Positions 18,673-21,791 of a DNA stretch of 64,000 bases are shown piece after piece; position 1 is the stretch's first letter, and each line of letters starts with the position of its first letter. Under the pieces are notes generated by a model, which was given only the letters and a program-made list of their open reading frames with translations, was not told where the DNA came from and searched no databases. Made by a program: the position numbers and the translations under genes. Origin of the DNA: Rhizodiscina lignyota (taxonomy: Eukaryota > Ascomycota > Dothideomycetes > Aulographales > Rhizodiscinaceae); contig ML978129.1 of NCBI GenBank assembly GCA_010015805.1, positions 434,001 through 498,000 on the forward strand, in the 5' to 3' direction.

Positions 18673-21600
18673 TCACACTCCGAGCGAGCCTATGTTAACG
18701 TCGTCGACGGCTCTGTTGGGTCGGAGGATGCAACCGTCCGGCGACTGAAGATTGTGGTGTTCCCAACTGGGCAGTTCTAAGTCATTAACACAAACATCCA
18801 TCTCTTGACTGCGATGCCTTCGTAGCATAATGCTTCTCCACTTTATTCGGGAGATGTTGTTAGGTATCTCGTGCCTCAGCCTCCGCATACTCGCCACGGC
18901 TCCCTTCCACCATAAGTACTGATGTCTTAGAGCAACGGAAAGTGCGATCTGCATAATAACAATCATAACGATGAGGGCAATGAGAAAGGATTTGAAATTC
19001 ATTTCGAAAGGTATGATACGCTGTGACATACTGAAATAGAGAGTACAGATCACAAAAGGGGCAATAACCTGGCTGATATTAGCTGCTGATCACTATGCTC
19101 CTGTTCAGTTTGGACGCACTGAAGTTATTAACTCTGCGACGAGTCCATTTTTCTGGGCCACTCGACTACCTTCAAGAATTAAGCGAAGTTGGAGCTGCGA
19201 GTGTCAGTCGAGTGATTTTCACGTGGTCGCGTTTTACTCACAACTCGCAAGAGTTCATGACAATGGTTCGTCTGAGGTAACAATCTCTGTTGGACGGATT
19301 CTAAACATCCGAGTGTCTTTTTGATATCATGTAGGTGCACCCGAGCCCTATCCTGGCCAGTCGAGGTTTCTTGGGAGGAACCAAGTTCGAAGAAGTAGCC
19401 CATATCTTCGCTGCTTGATAGAAGCCCTTGCCAAGCAGCTCTTGTTTCTGAAATTGTACCCTGCAGCAAATTCAGAAGTCGACTTATTGGCACGATCCGG
19501 TCGAAGGTCTTCTTGACGTTTTCGGTGACTGCCGATCCGTGGTCCCCTTCAGATGTACCGTATGCCATACTCTTAAAATTAAGCATTAGTTTTACGATCG
19601 TAATAGTTTCAAAATGAATGAAAGAGAGTAATGAACGATGAAATTCAGGACATACATCCAAATCTCGTCCGACTCTACACTCTACTTCGACCAGGATTTT
19701 CTCCCACTCATTGAGCAACCGTGCCGCGCGGTCTTTGAGAATCCAAAGGAAGTATTCCCTGGGATCCCAGGCCAACTGCAGTGCATCAAAGTTGATCTCA
19801 CGATACTCGTAGTTCTTCCCCGAGCATCTAGTGTCTCGTTCCGAGGTAGGGGGCCTATAAAAGCTGCAACTTCGTGGGATGTTGGGTTGGATATCCTCCG
19901 GGACTGGATACGACCGCATGAATTCAAAAACTCCCTTGGAATTGCTTAAAACAAGATGAAGGTATCGCTTCCTCTCCCATGCTTCGGGAGGAGGAATGCA
20001 TTTCTTGCCAAAGGTACCGAGGGAATCCCAACGGCGCTGTAGATCATATATATCGTTAAGCTGTCCAGCGGTATCGACTTCAAGGATTGGGTGAGTTTCC
20101 ACGTACTCCAGCCACGCGCAAATGGTTTGATTTTCGTTGTTCAGATGATTGCCATTATGACGATAGCAGTACTCCTCCACAGACTGTTCATTTGTCTTTA
20201 AATACTGAGACATTTGGTGGCCAGTGTAGTGCTCGCGTTGAGAAGGCCTGTAACTACGCATGCGGACGGACCTCCTTACTCTGGGGGGTTTATTCGAATC
20301 GTCATCGCTACCACTATCATCGCTCTCATCGTAGTGGTCCGAATCATCACGATCTCGCTTTTCGCGCTCGTTGTCGTTGTCCGCTGAGCTATCATGGTCC
20401 CGCCAACGTCGCATATCAAGCTCGTCATCAACAAAATGGCTAGCGATGTGATCAATCCTTTCTCCCCACGACGAAAAGACTGACCGACAAAATCCACAGT
20501 AACGGGGATATTGACTCCTCGGGATCTTGAAGTGGCCATTATTGATCCATTCTGTTGGGCTCAGACTTGGATGAATCTTTTCGAAGTGCTGTATGATGTG
20601 CTGACGACGATAAGCTGTATACTCGCACATTCGCAGCTCCATCTGGTCAAGAGAGTCAAACGACTTTCGATGTCTGGACTTCAGGTGTTCAGGAGTTGGG
20701 TTCTCCACTTGATGACCAGAAGGGCAGTAGGCACAGAATACGCTGTTCTTGACGCGGACAGTAGCTGGGACGGTACATATCCAGCCCTCCTGCGGATATC
20801 GAGTTTGCTCATGTCTCTTCCAGTCTTTCTTTTCTTTAAATCTCTTGCCACATTTACGGGTACACTGAAACGGTCTGTCGCAGTCCCGTGCTAGAAGGCT
20901 CAGGTCCTTGGTGGGGCGGCAATGCTTTCCAAGTTCTTTACCGCCCCTGCAAACCGCCTCTTTGGCTCTGACAAAAGCAGATTTCACACCTTCAGATTCA
21001 AACCAATCCCCAGGAGGCCTGGCTTTACACCTATTCAAGTCCTTGATGTCGTTATCATCTCGTGGGGCGGGGCCAGTTCCAGCAACACTTGCTGCCCCAG
21101 ATAGAGAGTGATTGTCCACGGAACCGCTGGCGAAGGAGGTTTGAGATGTGTTGAAAGCATAATTTATCCGGCTGCCCGAGTCACTGGTTGGAATTCCAGA
21201 ACTGGAATAATTCGAAAGAGTGTACGTTGAACTGGCAGAGCCCTGTCGTAACATCCTATTTCCAAACCAACTCTCAACGGCGTCCTTAGGCTGTCCCGAT
21301 AAGACACTCAAGGAGGCAATATCAGACTCCTTCGGAACTTTTGGTGAATTCAACTGCAACCAAAGCATGCAGTATTGTACGCCGGCCGGGCCAAGATTGT
21401 GAGTGTTTGCTGGCGCTGGAGCAGGCGCTGGAGCAGGCTTGAAACGCTTTGAATTGTCGCTGTGCTGGATGCTCCAGTGATCGGAAAACCCTCGCTCCGC
21501 TGTATCTGGATCGGGACCGTGATCCCTTTCAAGTGATATCAAAGAACGAGCTACCGGCTGAAGTGCCTGAAATGATCGTGTAGCATTGTTGTTTGCACCT

Positions 21601-21791
21601 GTATCAACCGAAATAGAGTCTCTGTCGAAGTTCAGACTATCGACGTCCATGTCCGCTAAAGCGTTGAAGTTCTCCATGAACTCGTTTCCGGTCGCATTAT
21701 TCCATATTGGATCCGTATCATCCATAGTCCCAGTGCCATCTTCAGTGAGCCAATGCGGTCCGGAAGGCTGAGAGCCCGACCCAGAATCCAT
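18673..21791 (-). CDS. Homeodomain-like/C2H2 zinc-finger protein with CorA-like membrane C-terminus
   Basis: Exons complement(18673..19068, 19120..19194, 19242..21791) give 1,006 residues; introns are 47 and 51 nt, both in phase. ATG 21791 is the first ATG of the long frame, which extends upstream only through TTG. The Asp/Ser-rich N-terminus is followed by a homeodomain-like helix ('DAVESWFGNRMLRQG'), then fungal-type C2H2 fingers: 'FQCTRKCGKRFKEKKDWKRH', 'FCAYCPSGHQ', 'HIIQHFEKIH' and 'YCGFCRSVFSSWGERIDH'. A highly charged Asp/Arg/Ser stretch and a ~300-residue helical region follow. Exons 2-3 end with 'LILEGSRVAQKNGLVAELIT' and two hydrophobic helices, 'SVIAPFVICTLYFSMS' and 'FLIALIVMIVIMQIALSVAL', the position and spacing of the CorA TM1-(GMN)-TM2 signature; GMN is replaced by SMS, so ion transport is doubtful. 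The fingers and helical region are in one uninterrupted exon. Confidence 0.8.

Follow-up and report, generated by a model that had tools for sequence, protein, structure and literature searches.

A gene on the minus strand of a 64,000-nucleotide window of the Rhizodiscina lignyota genome (contig ML978129.1, positions 434,001 to 498,000) appears to encode a chimeric membrane protein. Both halves of the predicted product are recognised by homology: an N-terminal head carries a homeodomain-like domain and C2H2-type fingers, and a C-terminal tail carries two transmembrane (TM) helices and a CorA-type fold, the latter assigned through a relative, P0020 from Amorphotheca resinae. A head of the transcription-factor type and a membrane tail derived from CorA would thus be combined in one polypeptide. 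The tail is hidden by the deposited annotation, so similar fusions may be overlooked elsewhere, and it points to an ascomycete family with a CorA fold, lacking the GMN motif, for which no Pfam domain is given among the rows listed. Among the possible functions we tentatively place first that of a sensor/effector anchored in the membrane, of the type that serves fungal non-self recognition.

A four-exon gene joins the head to the tail

The window is part of contig C9 in the 33.4-Mb assembly of R. lignyota (Aulographales, Dothideomycetes). The gene is read on the minus strand from an ATG at 21791 to a stop at 18675-18673; all four exons are multiples of three nucleotides and together give 978 residues. 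The first 822 residues of the spliced model are 100% identical to the deposited counterpart, NA57DRAFT_58385 (P0001, 878 residues).

18673..21791, minus strand: whole gene from ATG to stop, four coding exons, 978-residue product
19656..21791, minus strand: exon 1, residues 1-712 (712 codons), with the head, the linker and the beginning of the CorA-like stalk
19572..19655, minus strand: intron 1, 84 nucleotides, in frame, GTATGT...CTAATG...AAG
19242..19571, minus strand: exon 2, residues 713-822 (110 codons), stalk helices
19195..19241, minus strand: intron 2, 47 nucleotides, phase 0, GTGAGT...CAG
19120..19194, minus strand: exon 3, residues 823-847, in which the long stalk helix ends
19069..19119, minus strand: intron 3, 51 nucleotides, phase 0, GTGCGT...CAG
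18673..19068, minus strand: exon 4, residues 848-978 and stop, with most of TM1, the SMS loop, TM2, a basic tail and the -LGV end

The predicted splice junctions are placed by alignment with P0020, which spans every one of them and continues to the common '-LGV' end; the P0020 segment 'DLQLRLTLESNEVAQQNG' runs on across the intron 2 junction. In the gene model of L019, a tail paralogue in the same genome, one intron stands at the place matching intron 1 and another coincides with intron 3. An initial annotation, made from the letters of the window, had proposed introns 19241-19195 and 19119-19069, both in phase 0, and these are borne out by their GT...CAG signals and by the alignment. It had also read a single exon of 850 codons. 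The open frame exists, but the single exon is ruled out: it comprises 712 and 110 codons around the in-frame 84-nucleotide intron, which has splice signals, is likewise spliced out in P0001 and has no counterpart in the deposited protein.

The fusion of head and stalk is real in the DNA, because one stop-free exon holds both the fingers (residues 308-452) and the stretch where homology to the tail begins (residues 662-712). A merged-gene artefact at the joint between head and tail is rejected on the same ground, and the earlier argument that the fusion does not come from merging frames holds under the corrected exons.

The deposited model departs from ours at the 3' end. P0001 joins 19242, the end of exon 2, to 19030 inside exon 4 (acceptor TTTCAG) and continues in another frame, owing to which the membrane helices are absent from its 878 residues. 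We favour our 3' end, which is that of the initial annotation, on account of a paralogue match, alignment scores and codon bias. The open reading frame of L019 matches the window DNA over exons 3 and 4 (E = 1.6e-14). Against eight relatives, residues 823-978 score 46-200, while the 56-residue tail of P0001 scores 20-33, the latter without a shuffle control; the highest score, 200 with P0020, compares with 58 for the best of 500 shuffles. For seven of the eight relatives none of the 500 shuffles attained the score of residues 823-978; for P0028, seven did. Codon bias per codon in our frame is 0.031 in the TM exon, near the 0.044 of exon 1; in the deposited tail frame it is negative, at -4.3 in all, and the values of both frames are small. 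With a tail that scores below ours against the eight relatives, the deposited 3' end is not accepted as the main form.

The deposited splice form might be real as well, with alternative splicing toggling between a membrane form of 978 residues and a soluble form of 878. The acceptor TTTCAG in exon 4, with first base 19030, does account for P0001; the low scores of its tail and the negative codon bias speak against such a switch, and we consider it improbable. Two tail paralogues also have short deposited models. P0018 (L016) is deposited with 395 residues, shorter than the DNA allows and without the TM part, and P0019 (L019) with 446 residues and a missing N-terminus, for which an inferred GC-AG intron may account. 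These short models suggest prediction error at the end of P0001 too.

The predicted membrane tail is probably related to CorA

From residue 662 on, the tail is homologous to free-standing ascomycete proteins. Residues 675-978 align with P0020 at 32% identity (137 bits) over the stalk and both TM helices.

19656..19808, minus strand: start of the CorA-like stalk, residues 662-712, with a WDPREYF motif
19027..19068, minus strand: TM1, residues 848-861 in exon 4 (beginning at about 846, in exon 3), P-x8-SMS
18928..18987, minus strand: TM2, residues 875-894

The two hydrophobic helices span residues ~846-861 (the 19-residue window 842-860 has a mean of 1.67) and 875-894 (peak 2.9), and the 44 residues C-terminal to TM2 carry a charge of +9. 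L001 and L002, canonical CorA proteins of the R. lignyota genome, have P-x8-GMN in TM1, in agreement with the earlier observation of two TM helices at CorA spacing with SMS in place of GMN. The corresponding motif at the end of TM1 is SMP in P0020, SIP in P0021 and P0019, AIP in P0023 and P0024, GAE in P0025 and TMP in L016; the P-x8 pattern was not seen in P0022 and P0028. GMN occurs in none of the 10 family members whose TM region was examined, the window protein included.

The free-standing proteins P0020, P0021 (Lepidopterella palustris) and L019/P0019 share with the window protein the stalk, two TM helices, the lack of GMN and a basic tail; they differ in having an N-terminal alpha/beta domain of their own and neither homeodomain nor fingers. 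The C-terminal -GV recurs in P0020, P0021 and P0024. At window positions 18673-18684 the gene ends in -LGV, and the respective ends of these three relatives are -LGV, -MGV and -IGV, a shared C-terminus.

Kinship with CorA is supported by this homology and by the fold of P0020, whose predicted structure matches CorA, ZntB and Mrs2. The CorA fold was seen on this relative; the modelled window protein was the deposited form, which has the stalk without the TM part. The initial annotation had suggested comparing the C-terminus with CorA, and the comparison succeeds for the relative but leaves the deposited stalk tied with other bundles. With PF01544, the Pfam model of CorA, the spliced protein has no match at E up to 1 and P0020, P0021, P0023 and P0024 have none at E up to 5, and none of the 20 PF01544 places in the R. 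lignyota genome is the window gene. Points of resemblance to the CorA/ZntB/CmaX/Mrs2 channels are the predicted fold of P0020, the P-x8-[GS]M spacing in TM1 and the stalk helix leading into TM1; the window protein differs from them in having no GMN, no recognisable alpha/beta domain and an additional head. In alignment to relatives, the N-terminal alpha/beta domain of the P0020 family, with its DADRRLIYI motif, was not recognisable in residues 520-661 of the window protein. By comparison with CorA and from the +9 charge after TM2, both ends would be cytosolic (N-in/C-in).

Excerpts of two reports (PMC13022745, PMC6333687) take GMN as characteristic of Mg2+ transporters within the CorA superfamily. 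Magnesium transport by the window protein is unlikely because GMN is missing from all 10 members examined and the window protein has no recognisable alpha/beta domain. A working CorA-type channel for divalent cations, its gating regulated by the head, would fit the fold of P0020 and the TM1 proline and methionine at CorA spacing, but the same two absences, with SMS standing where GMN is expected, make it very improbable.

The head is homeodomain-like and carries C2H2-type fingers

The head and the region that links it to the tail comprise the following elements.

21234..21398, minus strand: homeodomain-like domain, residues 132-186, with helices 135-148, 155-165 and 169-184
20796..20870, minus strand: finger-like unit 1, residues 308-332, with C310, C314 and H327, and Y332 in the place of the last His
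20670..20735, minus strand: C2H2 finger 2, residues 353-374, C-x2-C-x12-H-x4-H, from the sequence and alignment A3
20571..20627, minus strand: finger-like unit 3, residues 389-407, His kept, one nearby Cys only
20436..20498, minus strand: C2H2 finger 4, residues 432-452, C-x2-C-x12-H-x3-H
20235..20396, minus strand: acidic, then basic linker, residues 466-519
19809..20234, minus strand: residues 520-661, with no homologue recognised and a low predicted local distance difference test score (pLDDT), in the place of the alpha/beta domain of the tail relatives

Residues 132-186 form a three-helix AlphaFold model (pLDDT 87-95), and hhalign aligns them to three KN homeodomains with a probability of 88.9. 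In a Foldseek search this part matched homeobox 2da3 with a probability of 1.00 but an E value of 0.19 and a root mean square deviation of 16.0, and a Pfam scan of the spliced protein at E up to 1 contained no homeodomain model. Because of the weak Foldseek statistics and the lack of a Pfam homeodomain row we call the predicted domain homeodomain-like rather than a homeodomain. W-F-x-N is the motif of the homeodomain recognition helix. WFGN is present in the domain, and alignment A3, 16 rows with the window protein among them, places its N as an insertion relative to the relatives.

By eye, two of the four finger-like units in residues 308-452 have all four ligands. Unit 1 reaches 16.3 bits in Pfam, under the cut-off, and its CTRKCG is invariant in A3. 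The finger 2 stretch is present in the window protein and P0002, with gaps in the remaining 14 rows. H398, H402 and H407 of unit 3 are invariant in A3, and the finger 4 ligands are invariant in 16 of 16 rows. All Pfam C2H2 models stay under their cut-offs for the spliced protein (16.3 against 27 bits; 15.8 against 25.2). The homeodomain-like helix and C2H2 fingers of the initial annotation are accordingly retained in part: the three-helix model, the hhalign result and two complete fingers agree with it, whereas the Pfam scans and the two incomplete units do not. Acidic stretches are present in relatives at the linker position too, and in the window protein the acidic linker is followed by the basic patch RVRRSVRMRSYRPSQR.

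Relatives of the two halves

Besides the deposited protein, at least 16 head relatives were found. Ten carry kinase and HET domains in precomputed Pfam data, one a KN homeobox and five no domain; BLASTP aligns the window protein with them over its head only. The homeodomain-like/C2H2-kinase-HET proteins (P0009 from Parastagonospora nodorum and at least nine others) share the head subfamily, the CTRKCG unit and the acidic linker, but have kinase and HET domains where the window protein has its CorA-like tail.

Within R. lignyota, L010 and L011 have KN homeodomains over the Pfam cut-off, with C2H2 matches below it, and the finger region of the window protein can be aligned to L010 at 35% identity. 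L010 (C9:396158), an open reading frame with KN homeodomain and C2H2 matches and a Tc5-type DNA-binding match, lies ~57 kb away on the same contig. A further protein of this genome, L018, has a sub-threshold C2H2 finger followed by a kinase domain over the cut-off, and apparently a homeodomain-like helix, recognised by eye; from L018, the head type seems to be shuffled in this genome too.

Homeobox proteins with C2H2 fingers are described as a class of fungal transcription factor in an excerpt of PMC7142095, and the homeodomain-then-fingers order of L010, L011 and the window protein is also that of A. nidulans HbxC, HbxE and HbxF in the same excerpt. The window protein departs from these factors in its divergent homeodomain-like domain, incomplete fingers and membrane tail. 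For Colletotrichum, part of another report (PMC8406175) describes homeobox and C2H2 proteins with further domains, including a CenpB-type helix-turn-helix and, in one species, an NAD(P)-binding and 6-phosphogluconate-dehydrogenase-like domain.

None of the 12 tail-family rows listed has a precomputed Pfam domain. Judged by species names, tail-family members span several ascomycete classes. One, P0026 from Xylogone sp., shows kinase-like and SesA-like matches and is possibly an NLR-type relative or a merged gene model. Two tail-like copies, L025 and L029, lie within ~10 kb of L019 on contig C4 (~1.267 and 1.283 Mb). Their matched stretches hold stops, which would be introns or decay, and in L029 the TM1-like and TM2-like pieces stand in different frames.

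Possible functions

We rank the sensor/effector reading first, tentatively, because the head subfamily accompanies kinase and HET domains and a tail relative, P0026, has sub-cut-off kinase and SesA matches. The CorA-type stalk and two-helix hairpin, with neither the GMN filter nor a recognisable alpha/beta domain, would anchor the cytosolic head and probably oligomerise it. The homeodomain-like/C2H2-type head would sense or bind a protein or nucleic-acid partner and would thereby switch the membrane module to another state, in the manner of modular sensor/effectors of fungal non-self recognition. The tail would then be an effector or an anchor, not a magnesium transporter. Several points weigh against this proposal. 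Its membrane step would rest on analogy. Both P0026 matches fall under the Pfam cut-offs, the P0026 gene model could be two genes merged, and a BLASTP search with the window protein does not match P0026. In Foldseek, the stalk of the deposited window protein tied CorA with unrelated helical bundles, none with E <0.001. Among the matches listed, from a protein search that retrieves relatives sharing exact words and similar length, the fused architecture is found in R. lignyota only, though it may exist elsewhere. HET genes are numerous in such fungi, so the adjacency of two HET-domain reading frames (see below) is weak evidence.

Membrane-held factors such as SREBP/Sre1 are released to the nucleus by cleavage. 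The window protein could likewise be a tethered transcription factor, its hairpin holding the homeodomain-like/C2H2 head until cleavage frees it; we rank this second, as possible though unlikely. The KN homeodomains of L010 and L011 above the cut-off, with their weaker C2H2 matches, the transcription-factor class to which homeobox/C2H2 proteins belong (PMC7142095, in part), the basic patch RVRRSVRMRSYRPSQR after the acidic linker and a two-TM hairpin that would keep head and tail on the same side are all consistent with it. Yet ligands are missing from two of the four finger-like units, the Pfam scan at E up to 1 has no homeodomain model, 10 of the 16 other head relatives listed are kinase/HET fusions, and a CorA stalk exceeds the needs of an anchor. 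No cleavage or ion site was identified in the window protein, in work that included no dedicated search tool, and the same Pfam scan has no row for a basic helix-loop-helix, the head type of SREBP-like factors. The kinase and HET (perhaps also SesA) company of both halves favours non-self-recognition signalling at least as much. More doubtful, and third in rank, is a recent or drifting fusion, in which this lineage fused a homeodomain/C2H2 gene to a CorA-like gene and is now losing the product. The restriction of the combination to R. lignyota among the matches listed, the unrecognisable alpha/beta domain and the broken frames of L029 would agree with it; against it, the frame runs unbroken through 978 codons and its three introns are proper ones, the protein still has WDPREYF, the P-x8 spacing and the -LGV end at an identity to P0020 of 32%, and codon bias in the TM exon is near that of exon 1.

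A bolder form of the sensor/effector proposal, to which we give little credence, has the head gate the CorA-derived module: a nucleic-acid- or partner-sensing effector that may also have a soluble splice form, a former ion channel having turned into a signalling or cell-death device. If the head does control the membrane module, the protein would be a eukaryotic counterpart of the CorA-type immune effectors of bacteria. The CRISPR type III CorA effector of B. fragilis, as an excerpt of PMC10600005 presents it, likewise sets a divergent CorA-family tail on another cytosolic part, but is bacterial, binds SAM-AMP and has an unrelated head.

Genomic surroundings

Two neighbouring open reading frames encode HET domains.

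22783..24384, minus strand: HET-domain open reading frame, upstream neighbour (PF06985, E = 2.8e-29)
25331..27292, plus strand: HET-domain open reading frame, second neighbour, with a hydrophobic N-terminus (PF06985, E = 2.3e-27)

Farther away, a 645-codon open frame (9616-11553, minus strand) has no match in Pfam (E up to 0.01). On the opposite strand, shortly beyond the 3' end of the gene, an open reading frame at 17900-18304 (plus strand) encodes several hydrophobic segments.
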